From NCBI RefSeq assembly GCF_002261185.1, contig NZ_NEVQ01000022.1, positions 124,001-188,000 of the forward strand: DNA of 64,000 nt, written 5' to 3'. This DNA is from Bordetella genomosp. 4. Lineage in GTDB: Bacteria; Pseudomonadota; Gammaproteobacteria; Burkholderiales; Burkholderiaceae_B. Within the stretch, counting starts at the first letter, position 1; each line of letters starts with the position of its first letter. The position numbers and the translations under genes were made by a program. Below the pieces are notes generated by a model, which had not been told where the DNA came from, did no database searches, and worked only from the letters and a program-made list of their open reading frames with translations. Shown here piece after piece: positions 7,516-30,209 of this stretch.

Positions 7516-8288
7516 AGCTCGCTTCTCCAGAAAACCACGCGACGCTCTGCCAACGCGACCAGACCATAGAACGACGTCCCCAACAGTCCTGACATCAAAA
7601 TCGCCGCCCATAAGGCAATGACCTGCTCGTTGTACATCGCCTGCAGCAGCAATACCCCCAGCCCCGTTGTATCGCCAAACCATTCTCCGGCGATGGCGCC
7701 CAGCAGGCTTAACGTGCATGCCAACCTCAATGCCACGAAAATCTGCGGCAACGCGGCAGGCAATTGCAAGCGGAACAAGAGCTGCCAGCGCGTCGCGCCA
7801 AAGCTTCTCAATAGATCGACCTGCCGTTGATCGACGGCGTCCATGCCATTCAATGTATTCACGGTGACAGGGAAGAACGTCAGATAGAACGCAATCAATG
7901 CCTTGGCCAATATGGTGTTGCCGAACCACAATACGACCACAGCGCCAAATGCGATCACCGGTATCGTCTGCGAAATCACAAACAAGGGGAAAATCAGTTC
8001 ACGCAGCGTGCGCGACTGTTTGAACAGCACGCCGTTGGCCACGCCGACCACCACCCCCATGGCAAAACCGAGCAACGTCTCGCTCATCGTTCGAAGAAAA
8101 CCCGCGATATACGCGTCTGGAACGGCGACGATGGACATCACGATGTCCGACAGTCGCGGCAGGTAGTACGGTTTGATGTTGCCCATCACCACCACGGCCT
8201 CCCACAGCGCGGCGGCAATCAGAATGGCGGCCGCACCGCGCAGCGTCGTCAGTGCAGCGGACCGGAGCATCGCGGCCGCCTTGCTCAT
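7512..8288 (-). CDS. ABC transporter permease, first subunit
   Basis: 258-residue integral membrane permease. The conserved cytoplasmic loop is LNGMDAVDQRQVDLLRSFGATR, followed by SLLGAIAGEWFGDTTGLG. The ATG at 8288 overlaps the stop of the binding-protein gene (ATGA) and the 3' end overlaps the GTG of the second permease, so the three genes are tightly coupled. It transports the ligand delivered by the binding protein encoded at 8285-9304. Confidence 0.9.
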   Translation of the reverse strand: MSKAAAMLRSAALTTLRGAAAILIAAALWEAVVVMGNIKPYYLPRLSDIVMSIVAVPDAYIAGFLRTMSETLLGFAMGVVVGVANGVLFKQSRTLRELIFPLFVISQTIPVIAFGAVVVLWFGNTILAKALIAFYLTFFPVTVNTLNGMDAVDQRQVDLLRSFGATRWQLLFRLQLPAALPQIFVALRLACTLSLLGAIAGEWFGDTTGLGVLLLQAMYNEQVIALWAAILMSGLLGTSFYGLVALAERRVVFWRSEL

Positions 8289-9304
8289 GGACGTCGCTCC
8301 TCGACGGGAATGGCCTGCAGAAAGCGGCCGTCAAATGCGGTGGTCACATCTACGGGTTTGGTGAGCACCTTGTTCTTCAGCAAGAACGCCTCGGTCGCTT
8401 CAATGGCTTTAGGGTCGATCCAGAACAATCCTTCGGTCTTCGCTTTCCCCTCCACCATCAAACGATAGGCTTCCGTGAGCATGAATTCCTGATGGGCGCG
8501 ATCCAGCGTAGGGGCGACTTTCATCACCGCATCGACTGCTTCCTTAGGATGCGCCATCGCATCGCGCCACCCACGAATGGACGCCCGCAAGAACTTCGTA
8601 ATCAGCTCAGGCTGATCCTGTGCCGTTTTCCTGGACACGATCAGCGTATCGCGCGGAAAGGTCACGCCATAGTCCTCGGCCACGAAAGTACGCAGATTGT
8701 CCGCCCCCATCCGCTGCTTGATCGTGTAAAGCTCGTTGTACCAAGTCGCAGTGGCGACATCGACGTCCCCGTTGACGAATGGTGTGACGCTGACCTGTTG
8801 AGGCTGGATGTCTACCTTGCTGCGGTCCACGCCGTTGTTCGCCAGCATGCCGAACAGCACATAATTCGCACCGGTGAACCAGGCAGTCACTTTCTTGCCT
8901 TCGAAGTCCTTCAACGTCTTGACCGGGCCGTCTTTGCGCGTCACGAAGACAAAGGGCGTCACCTGATGAGAAACACCTACCGACACGATAGGCATGCCTT
9001 TATCGATCGCCGCCATCACGCTGTCAGTGCCGCCGGACAGGCCGAACGTATCTGCCCCCGTAGCAACCAGATTCTCGGTCAGCAGATTGGGGCCGCCGGG
9101 ATTGATGGTCAGATCAATGCCCTCGTCCTTGTAGTAGCCCTTCTCCAAGGCGTAATAAAAGCCCGCGAATTGCGTCTGCGGCAGCCATTTCAAGCGCAGC
9201 GTTGCTTTCACCAGATCTGCGGCCTGCGCAGCGACAGGGGCCAATACAGCCAGCCCCAACGTGGCCGAAGCCGCCAATACCGCCAATGTGCGTCGTTTGT
9301 TCAT
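8285..9304 (-). CDS. ABC transporter substrate-binding protein (NMT1/THI5-like), start codon abutting an insertion element
   Basis: 339-residue periplasmic receptor. The ATG at 9304 is followed by a signal peptide (MNKRRTLAVLAASATLGLAV... ending AAQAAD). The mature part shows LKWLPQTQFAGFYYALEKGY and DEGIDLTINPGGPN, typical of NMT1/THI5-like receptors for pyrimidine-like or aromatic ligands. The start codon lies directly against the left end of the TnpB element at 9305: the native 5' region has been displaced and the element now supplies the ribosome-binding site (GGAG, 6 nt before ATG). The same frame is open further upstream, but that is antisense to tnpB and not coding. Confidence 0.9.
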   Translation of the reverse strand: MNKRRTLAVLAASATLGLAVLAPVAAQAADLVKATLRLKWLPQTQFAGFYYALEKGYYKDEGIDLTINPGGPNLLTENLVATGADTFGLSGGTDSVMAAIDKGMPIVSVGVSHQVTPFVFVTRKDGPVKTLKDFEGKKVTAWFTGANYVLFGMLANNGVDRSKVDIQPQQVSVTPFVNGDVDVATATWYNELYTIKQRMGADNLRTFVAEDYGVTFPRDTLIVSRKTAQDQPELITKFLRASIRGWRDAMAHPKEAVDAVMKVAPTLDRAHQEFMLTEAYRLMVEGKAKTEGLFWIDPKAIEATEAFLLKNKVLTKPVDVTTAFDGRFLQAIPVEERRP

Positions 9305-10643
9305 CCATTGCTCCGAGGAAACCTCGGCATTCATGCCGGGGAGATAAAGGGCGCAGCCGTAAGGCTGCAAGATCAGTCTGATTTGAGTTTTCAGCTGGAT
9401 AAATATCCAGTTTTTTAGCCTGGCGTCGATAGTATCTGGGGCATGCAAACCAAACGTGCCTACCGATTCCGGTTCTATCCGACGCCCGCGCAAGCGATCA
9501 CGCTGGCTCGCACGTTCGGGTGTGTACGTGTGGTCTACAACCACATGCTCAACTTTCGATCGACCGCCTGGGCTGAGCGACAAGAGAGTCTGGGGTATCA
9601 CGCCACCTCTGCAGCCCTGACGGCACTGAAAAAGTGCCCAGACTACGCGTGGTTGAACGAGGTCAGCAGTGTTCCGCTGCAGCAGGCACTGCGCCATCTG
9701 CAAACGGCGTTTGTCGGTTTCTTTACCAAACGAACGGGATATCCTCGCTTCAAACGCAAGGATGGCTCGCAATCGGCGGAGTACACCGCCAGTGCCTTTA
9801 GATGGGATGGCCGCTCGCTCAAGCTGGCGAAGATGGCTGAGGCGTTGCCCATCCGCTGGTCCCGTCAGATTCCCAAAGCCGCCAAGGTCACTACGGTCAC
9901 CGTCAGCACGGACGCAGCGGGCCGATACTTTGTCAGCCTGCTGTGCGACGACGTTGTAGCGCAGAGAGCGCCTACGTCGAACTGCGTCGGGATTGATCTG
10001 GGCCTGTCTCATTTTGCGGTGCTCTCAACAGGAGAAAAAGTCGATGCACCACAGATCTTTCGTAGGCATGAAGTTAAGTTGGCTAAGCTGCAGCGCCGGC
10101 TGGCTAGAAAACAAAAGGGATCGGCTCGCCGCGCCAAGGCGAAGCTGAAAGTGGCCAAGCTGCATGCAAAGATCGCAGACACCCGCAGGGATTTCCTGCA
10201 CCAGCTTTCTACCCGGTTGATCCACGAGAACCAAGTGATTGCCGTAGAAAGCTTGTCTGTATCCAGCATGCAGAAAAACCGCTGTCTTGCTAAGTCCATC
10301 GGCGATGCCGGATGGGCGGAGTTTGTGAGGCAACTTGAATACAAAGCGCGTTGGTATGGGCGTGAGTTCGTGCGGGTAGATCGTTGGTATCCGTCGAGCA
10401 AACGCTGCCATGTTTGCGGATATGTGTCACCGAAGCTGCCGTTGAGCATGCGACATTGGTCCTGTCCGCAATGCAACGCAGACCACGACCGCGACATCAA
10501 CGCGGCGCATAACGTATTAGCCGCCGGGCTGGCGGTGTTAGCCCATGGAGAAACGGTAAGACCTGAGTGCATGAGTGATGATGTGCAACGGCTCGATTCT
10601 GTGAAGTGGGAATCCCTTTCCTTCTAGGGAAGGGAGCAGTCAA
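9305..10643 (+). mobile_element. IS200/IS605-family (IS1341-type, tnpB-only) element, full copy
   Basis: 1339-bp element. The left boundary follows TTCAT (9300-9304) and the right boundary is TCAA (10640-10643), both set by comparison with the deleted copy at 28997-29264. There is no tnpA, no terminal inverted repeat and no target duplication, as expected for single-strand (Y1/HUH) transposition. The left end (9305-9451) holds three hairpins conserved in both copies: a CCTCGGC/GCCGGGG stem, GCAGCC-GTAA-GGCTGC, and CTGGATA-AA-TATCCAG. The right end has a CCCTTTCC/GGGAAGGG stem before GCAGTCAA. It lies inside the minus-strand operon between the dioxygenase and binding-protein genes. Confidence 0.9.
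9443..10627 (+). CDS. tnpB: TnpB RNA-guided nuclease (IS605 OrfB)
   Basis: 394 residues, full length for TnpB. The N-terminal OrfB helix-turn-helix region includes YRFRFYPTPAQ and ...RFKRKDG. The RuvC-like catalytic residues are present: D185 in GIDLGLSHF, E269 in IAVESLSV, and D351 in DRDINAAHN. A CxxC...CxxC zinc ribbon lies at C322/C325 and C341/C344. TnpB proteins use a guide RNA made from the element's right end to cut sites next to a transposon-adjacent motif, which helps the element persist. Here the motif should be TTCAT. All catalytic residues are intact, so it may be active. It needs a TnpA from elsewhere to move. Confidence 0.95.
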   Translation: MQTKRAYRFRFYPTPAQAITLARTFGCVRVVYNHMLNFRSTAWAERQESLGYHATSAALTALKKCPDYAWLNEVSSVPLQQALRHLQTAFVGFFTKRTGYPRFKRKDGSQSAEYTASAFRWDGRSLKLAKMAEALPIRWSRQIPKAAKVTTVTVSTDAAGRYFVSLLCDDVVAQRAPTSNCVGIDLGLSHFAVLSTGEKVDAPQIFRRHEVKLAKLQRRLARKQKGSARRAKAKLKVAKLHAKIADTRRDFLHQLSTRLIHENQVIAVESLSVSSMQKNRCLAKSIGDAGWAEFVRQLEYKARWYGREFVRVDRWYPSSKRCHVCGYVSPKLPLSMRHWSCPQCNADHDRDINAAHNVLAAGLAVLAHGETVRPECMSDDVQRLDSVKWESLSF

Positions 10644-10741: not shown

Positions 10742-11626
10742 TCAAAATGGCCGTGAGCCCGCCACCGTCGTTCTGTGCATGACGCGGCGATACTTGTTGT
10801 CGTCATAGGGCGTGGCGCAATGCATGGTGCAACGGTTGTCCCACAAAATCAAATCACCCTGCTGCCAACGATGGCGAAACACGAACTCGTCCTTGATCGC
10901 ATGTGCATTCAGCTCGGCCAGAAGCGCCTCAGATTCTGTTTCCGGTAAATCATTTATGCACTTCACGATGTCCTGGCCCACATACAACGACAGCCGTCCT
11001 GTTGTGGGATGGGTACGCACCACGGGTTGAATCACATCTGGCGTACGTGCCTTTTGCTCTTCGGTCAGCGGCGCACGATCGGCAAAGGCCTTGCCGTAAT
11101 AACCCGCATACGAGTGGGTGGCGCGCAAATTCCGGATACGGTTCTGCATATCGGCCGGCAACCCCTCGTACGCCAGATGCATGCTGGCAAACAAGGTGTC
11201 GGCCCCCTCTGGCGGCACCTCGACGGCATATAACAGCGATCCCATGCTGGGCTCGGCGACATATGACAGATCCGAATGCCAGTTCCAGCCTTCTTTGTGA
11301 TTACCGATAGGCTTTCCGTTTTCACTTACGTTGGACAGCACATAGATTTCAGGCAGGCCGGTTGTCAAAAACTGCTTCAGCACATGCGTCATCAGTGGGC
11401 CGAAACGGCGGCTGATTTCAACGTGGCGCTCATTCGACAGTTTCTGATTTCGCAGCAGAATGAGGGAATGTTTATCCAACTCGTCGACCAAAGCATCGAT
11501 GGCGTTGTCGCTATCTGGAGACGACAAATCCAGATCCATCACCTCCAGACCAAAACCGGGATGCAAGGGTTGGGTATTCAACACAATGGGTTCCTCAAAC
11601 GTAGGCATGAGCGATGTGGAAAGCAT
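10742..11626 (-). CDS. TauD/TfdA-family Fe(II)/2-oxoglutarate dioxygenase
   Basis: 294 residues from the ATG at 11626, which lies 2 nt after the aldolase stop; an ATG 18 nt downstream is an alternative. Members oxidise a substrate with O2 while decarboxylating 2-oxoglutarate. The iron ligands are visible: HxD in NWHSDLSY and the distal His in DNRCTMHCATPYD, and the arginine that binds 2-oxoglutarate is in RRVMHRTTV. TfdA acts on aryloxyacetates and TauD on taurine. In this operon, with an aldolase, a bicupin and an ABC importer, a role in opening an imported compound is likely, but the substrate is unknown. Confidence 0.88.
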   Translation of the reverse strand: MLSTSLMPTFEEPIVLNTQPLHPGFGLEVMDLDLSSPDSDNAIDALVDELDKHSLILLRNQKLSNERHVEISRRFGPLMTHVLKQFLTTGLPEIYVLSNVSENGKPIGNHKEGWNWHSDLSYVAEPSMGSLLYAVEVPPEGADTLFASMHLAYEGLPADMQNRIRNLRATHSYAGYYGKAFADRAPLTEEQKARTPDVIQPVVRTHPTTGRLSLYVGQDIVKCINDLPETESEALLAELNAHAIKDEFVFRHRWQQGDLILWDNRCTMHCATPYDDNKYRRVMHRTTVAGSRPF

Positions 11627-11628
11627 GA

Positions 11629-12444
11629 TTAATTCCGATAAGAAGGATCCTGACGATCCAATTGACGAATGAACGCAGGCCACTCGCGCTCGCCGGCTAC
11701 CAAGATGTCGCCTTTCATTTCCCAGAACTGTCTGGCGGCTTTTTCGCAGACCTCGTGCGGCGGCAGGACCAGCGGACCCGCCCCTCCCGCCACCGAGGCC
11801 TGCATCTGCAGCTGTATCTGTGCAGCGCGCTCGAAGTAGTACAGCAGCATGAAGGCTTCGCCCGGCGTGCGTCCCACAGTCAACAGACCGTGATTGCGCA
11901 TCAACATGACCGGATGCTGGGCGAAATGCGCGATCAAGCGTTCCTGCTCGTCCAGATCGATCGCCACGCCCTCATAGTCGTGAAACGCCTGGCGTTGATA
12001 AAAACGCATCGCGAACTGCGACAGCGGCAACAAACCATCCCGCTGGGCAGAGACGGCGATACTGGCATCCGAGTGTGTGTGCAACACGCAGACCGCATCA
12101 TGACGGCTTTGATGAATGGCACCATGGATGACAAAACCTGCGGCATTGACCTGGTAAGGCGAATCGCAGAGCTTTTGACCATGGACATCGATACGCACCA
12201 GGCTGGATGCCGTGATCTCCTCAAACAGCATGCCGTAGGGGTTAATCAGAAATTGATCATCCTTTCCCGGCACGCGCAACGAAATGTGGTTGTAAATCAG
12301 ATCGTCCAAGCCTAATTTCGCCACCAGGCGATAGCAGGCCGCAAGGGACACACGGGCTTCCCATTCGGCTTCTCCATACTGCTCTCGGCCGAGCTCGACC
12401 GTACCGGATGCCAATTGAACAGGCTCTAAGGTGATATTCAACAT
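11629..12444 (-). CDS. class II aldolase/adducin-family protein
   Basis: 271 residues from the ATG at 12444 (a TTG at 12453 overlapping the previous stop is an alternative; AAAGGAGGG lies upstream of both). The family includes fuculose-phosphate aldolase, ribulose-phosphate epimerase-like proteins and many catabolic aldolases or decarboxylases. Zinc-binding histidines appear in VLHTHSDASIAVSA and further on in LMRNHGLLTVG. The N-terminal LAACYRLVAKLGLDDLIYNHISLRV is also typical. It lies between the ABC ATPase and dioxygenase genes with almost no spacing, so it is probably part of the same catabolic route. Confidence 0.88.
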   Translation of the reverse strand: MLNITLEPVQLASGTVELGREQYGEAEWEARVSLAACYRLVAKLGLDDLIYNHISLRVPGKDDQFLINPYGMLFEEITASSLVRIDVHGQKLCDSPYQVNAAGFVIHGAIHQSRHDAVCVLHTHSDASIAVSAQRDGLLPLSQFAMRFYQRQAFHDYEGVAIDLDEQERLIAHFAQHPVMLMRNHGLLTVGRTPGEAFMLLYYFERAAQIQLQMQASVAGGAGPLVLPPHEVCEKAARQFWEMKGDILVAGEREWPAFIRQLDRQDPSYRN

Positions 12445-28378: not shown

Positions 28379-28996
28379 CTAGTCTTGCACCAGACGAAAC
28401 ATGGTGCGTTTGGTATTGATGAAATTCGGACGGACGCGATCGCTCCAGGATGTCGCACGCACTGCCAACCAGGCGGGCGACCCAAAGGCTTCGCGTTGTG
28501 CCAGGTCATAGCAGGCGTAATAGCGCGGCGAGCTGTTTTCAGCGAGATAGCGGCGCGCCCTCACCGTGCCTGGTACGGCGGCTAACCCCGGCAGATGCTC
28601 AGTCTCATACCAACGATCAAAATCGGCTTCTGCGCCGGGCTTGATATCGGTCTCGACCATGTAAAACCACGGGGCTGCTTGTCCCGCGGAGTGCCCTGCC
28701 ACATCGGTGGTCAATGCCAGGCCTACCACCAACGCTCGAGGGTGCAACTCGCGCAGAGCCGCCTGCATAGCGTCGAGGTCGGTATTGGAATCGCTGCTCG
28801 CGCGTGTATCGGTGCTGCCGCCAGCATTGATACCTGCGTTGGCGTCGATGCCAGCGGGCGAGTACCACCACACATAAGTTTCGTCGTGATCCACCGCGTG
28901 ATAGATGCGTAAATCCGTTTGCGTCGCGCCGGGCAGCGCCAACACGGCGGTCTCGCTCAAGGTCTCTTCCGGAAATTTGATTAGTATTGATTTCAT
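28379..28996 (-). CDS. EthD/dimeric alpha-beta-barrel-like protein of unknown function
   Basis: 205 residues. The C-terminal half has the EthD-like pattern PWFYMVETDIKPGAEADFDR followed by WYETEHLPGLAAVPGTVRARRY, seen in small ferredoxin-like-fold catabolic proteins. An Asn/Gly/Ala/Ser-rich insert (about 50-70) separates it from an N-terminal half that may be a divergent second barrel. The start codon ATGAAA abuts the left end of the mini insertion element at 28997, which supplies its GGAG ribosome-binding site. Function is not recognised; the setting suggests a helper or isomerase in the same catabolic pathway. Confidence 0.7.
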   Translation of the reverse strand: MKSILIKFPEETLSETAVLALPGATQTDLRIYHAVDHDETYVWWYSPAGIDANAGINAGGSTDTRASSDSNTDLDAMQAALRELHPRALVVGLALTTDVAGHSAGQAAPWFYMVETDIKPGAEADFDRWYETEHLPGLAAVPGTVRARRYLAENSSPRYYACYDLAQREAFGSPAWLAVRATSWSDRVRPNFINTKRTMFRLVQD

Positions 28997-29264
28997 CCAT
29001 TACTCCGACAAACCTCGGCATTCATGCCGGGGAGGAAAGGGGCGCAGCCGTAAGGCTGCAAGATTGGTCTGATTTGAGTTGGTGTCTGGATAAATATCCA
29101 GTTTTCTGGCTTGGCTTGGATAGTATCTCGGGCATGCAAACCATTAGCCGCCGGGCTGGCGGTGTTAGCCCATGGAGAAACGGTAAGACCTGAGTGCATA
29201 TGATGTACAACGGCTCGGTTCTGTGAAGTGGGAATCTCTTTCCTTTAGGGAGGGGAGCAGTCAA
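28997..29264 (+). mobile_element. internally deleted (MITE/PATE-like) copy of the TnpB element
   Basis: 268 bp. Positions 28997-29142 match the left end of the full copy (9305-9451) and 29143-29264 match its right end (10516-10643); the join comes after codon 3 of tnpB (ATGCAAACC), removing over 1 kb. Both termini, their hairpins and the TTCAT/TCAA borders are kept, so it could still be moved in trans. Base differences in both ends show it is not a very recent copy. It sits exactly between the amidohydrolase and EthD-like genes. Confidence 0.9.
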
Positions 29265-30160
29265 GAGCCGAATCGATACAAGGTGTGGGGGTTATCAACC
29301 AATATCTGGTGCTGCATGGCGCGATCGGGGCAAAGACGCAGAAACGTGTTGAGCAACTCGCCGTCATCCGGCATATCGCCGGCCACATTGGGATGCGGCC
29401 AGTCCGTGCCCCATAGCAGGCGCTCCGGCATTGCCTCCAACAAGGCGGCCACCAAGGGCTCGGCATCTGCAAAAGGCCGTTTCCCATGGCTGGAGACACG
29501 ATCCAGCCCGGAAATCTTGACCCAGGCATTCGGGTGGTCGCGCAATGCCAGCAGCGCCTGAAATGCGTCGTTCGCTACGCCTTGCGAGGCAGCGACCCGC
29601 CCCATGTGGTCGATCACGAAAGGCACCGGCAGGCGTTTCAGGCGCGGCAGCAGGTCCATGAGCGACGCTTGGTCGGAATGAATACACACATGCCATCCCA
29701 GCGCAGCGATCCGAGGCGCCACCTGAGCCAATTCATCCCAGCCTCCGTTGGCGAGATGGGCGACGAAGTTGTAGCGCACGCCTCGCACACCACGGGAATC
29801 CATATCCTCCAGCTCGCGCTCGTTGACCGTGGGGCGTACCAGCGCAATGGCGCGATACTGCCCTGCCCCTTTGTCCAGCGCGTCCAGCGTGGCCGACATG
29901 TCGTAGCCATGGCAACCAGGCTGGACGATCACGCCGCGGCTGAATCCCAGCTGCTGATGCATATGGCGCATCTGTTCAAACGAAGCATCGGGAGGCGTAT
30001 AGGGGCGATCCGCCGCATAAGGAAAAACGTCGGCCGGCCCAAAGATATGGAAATGGCTATCGCAAGCCTGCGCCGGTAAAGCTTGGCTGGCAGGCGTAAT
30101 CTGAGCAAGAGGAGGCGCGCAATCGGGCATGGGAATCGTGTAGCTGTCGGGAATTCGCAT
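29261..30160 (-). CDS. amidohydrolase (2-pyrone-4,6-dicarboxylate lactonase-like)
   Basis: 299 residues from ATG 30160; ATG 30130 is an alternative and neither has a strong ribosome-binding site. TIM-barrel amidohydrolase of the LigI type: CDSHFHIFGP (HxH metal ligands), HSDQ (His), VIDHMGRV (His) and LLWGTDWPHPN (Asp). LigI hydrolyses 2-pyrone-4,6-dicarboxylate in aromatic degradation; related enzymes act on other lactones. The stop TGA lies within the TTGA terminal bases of the mini insertion element. Reconstructing the empty site gives TCATGAA, so before insertion the stop overlapped the next gene's start, and the protein sequence was unchanged. Confidence 0.88.
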   Translation of the reverse strand: MRIPDSYTIPMPDCAPPLAQITPASQALPAQACDSHFHIFGPADVFPYAADRPYTPPDASFEQMRHMHQQLGFSRGVIVQPGCHGYDMSATLDALDKGAGQYRAIALVRPTVNERELEDMDSRGVRGVRYNFVAHLANGGWDELAQVAPRIAALGWHVCIHSDQASLMDLLPRLKRLPVPFVIDHMGRVAASQGVANDAFQALLALRDHPNAWVKISGLDRVSSHGKRPFADAEPLVAALLEAMPERLLWGTDWPHPNVAGDMPDDGELLNTFLRLCPDRAMQHQILVDNPHTLYRFGS

Positions 30161-30209
30161 GATGCGCAGTCCGCGCCCGGCCGGCAATGAGACTTAGCGG
30201 ACTTCTGAT

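Follow-up and report, generated by a model that had tools for sequence, protein, structure and literature searches.

The question raised by this locus is how a transposon can come to lie directly in front of the start codon of a gene and be retained there. Two copies of an element of the tnpB type are present in a 64,000-nt stretch of Bordetella genomosp. 4 (assembly GCF_002261185.1, contig NZ_NEVQ01000022.1, positions 124,001 to 188,000 of the forward strand; referred to here as the window). For this element and its relatives in other genomes, the target is a short word that reads NTGA on the strand of the adjoining gene: TCAT, TCAC and, rarely, TCAA, giving the starts ATGA, GTGA and TTGA. 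Insertion at start codons is general among them, as relatives in Actinobacteria, in Gammaproteobacteria and in one cyanobacterium behave alike. Judging from their sequences, these are fairly likely to be IS1341-like elements whose ends let an insertion at a start codon leave both operon neighbours expressed. The two window copies, their parts and the genes behind their left ends are as follows.

9300..9304, plus strand: TTCAT, the target beside the left end of copy 1, complementary to the ATGAA with which a minus-strand gene starts
9305..10643, plus strand: TnpB element copy 1, 1339 bp, from CCATTGCTCC to ..GCAGTCAA; boundaries from left- and right-end matches in the genome
9311..9314, minus strand: GGAG, the Shine-Dalgarno (SD) core of the left end of copy 1, 6 nt before the host ATG
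9322..9341, plus strand: left-end hairpin CCTCGGCA-TTCA-TGCCGGGG, found by eye; relatives have hairpins at the same place
9443..10627, plus strand: tnpB, 394 aa, with HTH_OrfB_IS605, OrfB_IS605 and Cas12f1-like TNB domains (Pfam)
10640..10643, plus strand: TCAA, the right end of copy 1, reading TTGA on the gene strand
8285..9304, minus strand: downstream host gene of copy 1, a 339-aa NMT1-type periplasmic binding protein (Pfam) whose ATG abuts the left end
28992..28996, plus strand: TTCAT, the target of copy 2; its complement is the ATGAA start of the open reading frame (ORF) 28379-28996
28997..29264, plus strand: copy 2, tnpB lost by internal deletion, both ends kept (end matches)
29003..29006, minus strand: GGAG of copy 2, 6 nt before the host ATG
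28379..28996, minus strand: downstream host gene of copy 2, 205 aa, the ORF at the copy 2 target

The original prediction had placed both copies behind TTCAT as the complement of ATGAA starts, and the coordinates (9300-9304 and 28992-28996) agree. It had also put a GGAG 6 nt before each host ATG, and this was read directly in both left ends. On the gene strand these are CCTCGGAGCAATGG|ATGAAC in copy 1 and GTCGGAGTAATGG|ATGAAA in copy 2, which sets the GGAG at that distance in each. The N-terminus of the 339-aa protein resembled a signal peptide by eye, and a Pfam search with the 205-aa ORF gave no match.

The whole genome contained 11 matches to the left end and 11 to the right end. The word at the left flank was TTCAT for nine left ends and GTCAT for two, and a coding frame opened at the abutting ATGA in all 11. 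With the joined empty site or the left flank as input, a gene caller set the start exactly at the junction in 10; for the remaining left end, a CysG-like case, the called start was 12 codons upstream, yet the first Pfam domain began at residue 6. The proteins behind the junctions included the NMT1-type binding protein and a siroheme synthase CysG, both identified by Pfam, and, by eye from their N-termini only, proteins resembling GatB, a thiolase, a LysR regulator and a branched-chain amino-acid permease. As background, 749 TTCAT sites were classified in 464 kb of the same genome, window included, of which 58 were at called starts, 598 within genes and 93 intergenic; a first background, by coding score only, overcounted starts and was replaced by the gene caller. 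The original prediction had expected the copies at starts in excess of the TTCAT background, and this was found (11/11 by coding frame and 10/11 by the caller, versus 58/749). The probability of at least 10 of 11 at starts was 8e-11 against all TTCAT sites.

Part of this bias is survival, because start codons already make up 58 of the 151 TTCAT sites not within called genes in that background. Survival might even account for all of it: the transposase would target TCAY for reasons of its own, genic insertions would be lost, many of the TCAY sites left over in a compact genome would be starts, and the SD-like stretch would be a structural part of the left end. We consider this unlikely. The share of copies at starts (at least 10/11) was also above the non-genic null formed by the TTCAT sites outside genes (p = 5e-4). 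Moreover, separating an SD sequence from its ATG would ordinarily be expected to shut the gene off, and such insertions should then also disappear; that they are tolerated calls for an explanation.

The other ten left ends showed 79-88% identity to that of the window copy, and the Y1 transposase family PF01797 had no match in the whole genome; the insertions therefore look old and at present immobile. The CTCC that gives GGAG on the gene strand was unchanged in all 11 copies, but this says little, since 40 of the 151 alignment columns are equally invariant.

Empty sites were found for two junctions. The gatA-gatB junction is unbroken in all eight congeners (..GCA|ATGAACTGG), and in this genome the element stands exactly at the bar. 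The GatA-like upstream frame, recognised by eye, ends CAA TGA at the empty site, where it overlaps the gatB ATGA. At the filled site it reads CAT TGA: a stop is preserved by the right end, which is TCAA when read along the element and TTGA along the gene. The second junction is that of trbI and traW, where a Klebsiella plasmid carries the element: the filled junction reads gaacagTA|TTGAC...element...|ATGACACGA, and the empty one, read from one opened plasmid record, gaacagTA|ATGATACGA. TrbI of the filled plasmid is longer by one Tyr and terminates at the TGA that the right end provides; TraW of the filled and empty forms is identical at 204 of 209 positions, stop included. The filled traW region, used as a query, matched 2262 plasmid records, with TrbI named at the match in 25 of 40 among the matches listed. 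In both cases (gatB in 8/8 congeners; trbI-traW filled and empty) the insertion is 3' of a short fixed target, without target duplication.

The genes upstream of the two window copies, and the stop formed there, are as follows.

10742..11683, minus strand: upstream host gene of copy 1, a TauD-like dioxygenase (Pfam), on the strand of the downstream gene
29261..30187, minus strand: upstream host gene of copy 2, an amidohydrolase (ORF list and Pfam)
29261..29263, minus strand: TGA stop of the amidohydrolase ORF 29261-30187, formed by the copy 2 right end

Copy 2 was considered as proof of a split overlapping junction and dropped. The pair of amidohydrolase and 205-aa genes is kept in congeners with a spacer of approximately 20-40 nt (by eye), so the empty state of copy 2 is uncertain; a small deletion may have preceded or accompanied its arrival. 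Opposite tnpB of copy 1, the minus strand carries long open frames (8285-10012 and 10009-10572), one of which extends in frame into the host gene, and an antisense open frame of 239-240 codons was present in all four full copies examined. Translational coupling through the 8285-10012 frame was rejected: the frame relative to the host ATG differs among the four full copies, and the antisense frame was for this reason put down to coding bias.

Relatives were collected by a TnpB scan of a genome collection (109 confirmed stretches, reduced to 80 loci); 21 of those genomes yielded additional copies, as did three other proteobacterial genomes (4 of 398 genomes matched, this genome included). After removal of duplicates, 139 distinct relatives remained. 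An automatic rule, requiring a hairpin 10-25 nt behind TCAT or TCAC, placed a left end in 64 of them and none in 75. Thirteen automatic picks were removed as wrong and 17 were placed or moved by hand where TCAT, TCAC or TTAT was visible, giving 67 relatives, a set in which the hand placement leans towards TCAY. Elements with tnpA, those of Bacillota and others, and some decayed left ends (L046, L048, L060, L103, L107, L109) were unscored, and L033, one of 12 family loci outside the own genome, was left out for its unclear boundary. The final set held 89 left ends (67 relatives, 11 own copies and 11 family members), of which 78 followed TCAT, nine TCAC and two TTAT. By eye, these were split into 69 of a GGAG type and 20 of a GCGCG or similar type, the sister group. 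In a further series (L261-L281), many sister left ends (GTGCGCGGCAAGCC and similar) were preceded by a TGACC(C)GG stretch and not by TCAT. In Nonomuraea, Microbispora and related genomes, many tnpB matches held one TGA within the aligned stretch.

The actinobacterial left ends numbered 56, nine TCAC and one TTAT included, and 28 were exactly at a called start. The gene caller requires a stop codon inside the fragment, and some actinobacterial genes were missed. Among the 28 non-exact cases, 13 had no call, six were called in another frame, three lay inside an opposite-strand gene, three were called 3-6 codons downstream and three upstream. Pfam was run on 25 of these (L045, L177 and L208 were left out), and in 17 of the 25 the frame that the junction dictates had a match (one, L059, below the Pfam cut-off), which shows that the frame is real and says nothing on an exact start at the ATG. 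With support by caller or Pfam counted together, 45 of 56 actinobacterial left ends were supported as lying at gene starts, in line with the expectation that relatives should sit at starts as the window copies do. The two other proteobacterial GGAG-type left ends were divided, one being at a called start and the other (L035) not. In 400 kb of seven actinobacterial genomes, 63 of 1430 TCAT sites were at starts, or 63 of 383 outside genes. The exact cases alone (28/56 versus 16%, p = 7e-9, the nine TCAC and one TTAT being tested against the TCAT background) exceed what survival would leave.

Five of the nine TCAC left ends were supported as GTG starts (L176, at PurK; L178; L179; L181; and L182, at CbiC), and four were unsupported. 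The claim that the target marks start codons therefore stood, while its restriction to TTCAT did not: the target is the short NTGA word, as TCAT, TCAC and, in one case, TCAA. That these shifts all remain start codons also speaks against survival alone.

A transposase or target-capture step that responds to features besides the word, such as structure or single-stranded DNA where translation starts, would equally produce an enrichment above the non-genic null. Start/stop overlaps were over-represented at the exact actinobacterial starts with a known right end (12/23 versus 20/99 background starts, p = 0.003), as such active seeking might predict; in this genome the counts were 2/6 versus 7/58. 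However, inspection by eye of the flanks compared revealed no shared motif besides TCAY, and the target word is on the template strand. Active seeking is accordingly regarded as most improbable.

The test for an SD sequence asked for a core of four or more bases complementary to the anti-SD, located 4-10 nt upstream of the ATG. This core was present in 67 of the 69 GGAG-type left ends, always at 4-8 nt; it occurred in 16% of left ends after shuffling and at 210 of 1465 TCAT sites taken at large. It was thus kept in related left ends, as the original prediction had anticipated. At that spacing it was found in 0 of the 20 sister-group left ends, although 67/69 versus 0/20 is no independent test, as the groups were split by eye on this very region. 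Pairing energies pointed the same way for the element, with a median of -9.3 versus -5.6 kcal/mol for the displaced native leader (55 loci). Energy alone was rejected as a test and the spacing-restricted core test used instead, since it is too loose: left ends lacking an SD sequence had a median of -5.4 kcal/mol, a score probably due to GAGGT in the hairpin stem. The core takes different forms among the left ends (GGAG, GGAGG, GGAGGT, AAGGAG, GAAAGGA and others), a variety that also argues against a merely surviving structural part. Left ends frequently contain a further ATG, out of frame and lying four bases ahead of the host start (AATGGATGAA; minus strand, 9306-9308 in the window); it varies among the genome copies, in which CAGTGG and CAACGG also occur.

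The CTCC might alternatively be a guide or stem of the left end for cleavage, for example by TCC-GGA pairing beside the hairpin, with its likeness to an SD sequence accidental. Such TCC..GGA pairing across the linker is possible, by eye, in some left ends. Yet in sister left ends that share the target, the hairpin and the preceding stretch are kept but the CTCC is absent, and CCTTTC, CTCCTT and CCTCCG replace one another, as would be expected of an anti-SD-like sequence. An accidental likeness is thus judged quite improbable.

The right end ended in TCAA in 61 of 63 cases and in CCAA in two, a ratio which compares these two only, as right ends were located with patterns ending in one or the other. 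The left end had been predicted to be the part that fits the insertion to genes. Its SD core (67/69) agrees with this, but the right end matters too, as its TTGA gives an overlapping upstream gene a stop.

Plasmids offered a set with published annotation. TnpB relatives were present in 4039 of 72556 plasmid records (protein search), most commonly in Klebsiella, Salmonella, Escherichia and Enterococcus. Fifteen of the 60 hits listed were opened; one had no annotation and 14 were scored. The annotated start of the adjoining minus-strand gene was exactly at the target word in 12 of the 14, which is only a partly independent test because annotation software itself uses SD signals, and for two of which (L320 and L327) the left boundary was set by the gene-start position and not by end alignment. 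The twelve fitting genes were rfbB (three times), trbC, traX, traW, an FAD oxidoreductase, a head processing protein (L320, whose left end is unusual in shape) and four hypothetical proteins, including the cyanobacterial case (L327). The annotated upstream stop was the TGA of the right end in seven of the 12, and lay inside the element in three and outside it in two (same-strand upstream genes). In one rfbB case (L322:2381) the target TCAA gives a TTG start, a third start-codon variant seen once. Three Streptomyces plasmids (L317, L322, L329) had different left ends at the same junction of a glucose-1-phosphate thymidylyltransferase gene and rfbB, as if it had been hit or replaced repeatedly. 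Some elements in the opened plasmids were at the starts of transfer genes (traW, traX, trbC).

Several observations weigh against ends made for gene junctions. Eleven of the 56 actinobacterial left ends were without gene-start support. Three of the supported 45 had a called start well upstream of the junction, by 25 codons in L054, 56 in L065 and 171 in L058. For L055, L176 and L199 the caller preferred an opposite-strand gene. On plasmids, two of the 14 did not fit, Thioalkalivibrio, with no gene annotated there, and Alicyclobacillus. The filled traW left end (L321) has a G-run and no GGAG. The sister group, without GGAG and with the same target, was exactly at called starts in 12 of 20 and by frame in 14 of 20 (for example L172, at a gene with a CTP-synthase-like N-terminus); the supplied SD sequence is therefore not indispensable, as survival alone would have it. 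TCAA, moreover, is the right-end cleavage motif of IS608 and, as far as is known, general for the group, so stop rescue may be a by-product.

The window TnpB matched Pfam PF01385, PF07282 and PF12323, i.e. the OrfB_IS605 and TNB zinc-ribbon domains, and the Y1 tnpA is absent from the element (PF01797; whole genome, element included), both as in the IS1341 group. The subterminal left-end hairpin was read directly, and terminal inverted repeats were not seen, by eye only. Transposition in IS200/IS605 proceeds through a single-stranded circle that is joined to the 3' side of a short word; this word is recognised by base pairing, cleavage sites being paired with a guide located in the end, and no target duplication arises. 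For TnpB the right flank is the guide and the target word the transposon-associated motif (TAM). The present elements resemble the IS1341 type in their TnpB with OrfB and TNB domains, the lack of tnpA, the apparent subterminal hairpin, the absence of target duplication at gatB, the short fixed word and the TCAA right end. They differ in that the target is the complement of a start codon plus A, the left end carries an SD sequence at the proper spacing, and the right end can close the upstream gene. The best reading is that they are TnpB-only (IS1341-like) elements of the IS200/IS605 type, with ends suited to operon junctions. To our knowledge, IS1341-type elements with a start-codon target, an SD sequence in the left end and a stop-supplying right end have not been described; in a full-text literature search covering few subscription papers, none of the titles and abstract openings pointed to start-codon targeting or to SD sequences in TnpB element ends.

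The nearest published hint may be the HEARO (IscB) elements, whose integration site is described as ATGA or GTGA, the same words as here. Their nuclease is different; the window protein matches TnpB families. The Rfam family RF02033 gave no match in this genome and one weak match, none over the cut-off, in 299 genomes, and HEARO/IscB was dropped as a second case of the start-codon rule. Outward-reading insertion sequences have ends that influence the expression of the neighbouring gene, but through promoters, whereas here it would be through a ribosome-binding site exactly at the start codon. IStrons can make their insertion neutral to the host gene. Group I introns are reported to do likewise (PMC3984707). 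Both splice from the RNA, whereas the present elements stay in the transcript and would contribute translation signals through their ends.

The following course of events is proposed. The element would enter just upstream of the target word on the gene strand, antisense to the gene, and operon transcription would read through it. The left end would become the 5' leader of the downstream gene, with its SD site 4-8 nt before the intact start codon, and the TTGA of the right end would hand an overlapping upstream gene an in-frame TGA (yzA TGA becoming yzT TGA). Both neighbours would remain expressed, and the insertion would therefore be nearly harmless and retained. TnpB presumably takes the same TCAY word as its TAM and the 5' region of the gene as its guide, and cuts empty alleles. 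The position of the elements at starts, the sequences of both ends and the empty sites were observed directly. We infer from these sequences that translation starts from the site of the element and that the ends evolved for this purpose; they have probably been shaped by selection for compatibility with host translation. The wider proposition, that a widespread lineage of RNA-guided transposons has evolved for gene junctions, with a start codon as its TAM and target, a portable ribosome-binding site as its left end and a portable stop as its right end, has about an even chance of being correct on this evidence.

If true, such elements alter the leader of the gene behind them, which is a warning for annotators, and they present a directly testable case of host translation selecting on transposon ends. 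Their route to harmlessness would be unlike splicing, safe-site targeting by protein contact or intergenic landing, in that part of the genetic code itself serves as the target word and translation on either side of the insertion is restored by the ends. Entry would be without cost even at overlapping operon junctions of important genes such as gatB, and shifts of target between lineages would remain within the set of start codons. This would explain the start-codon-like TAMs of some TnpB elements, and their persistence in compact genomes and transmissible plasmids.

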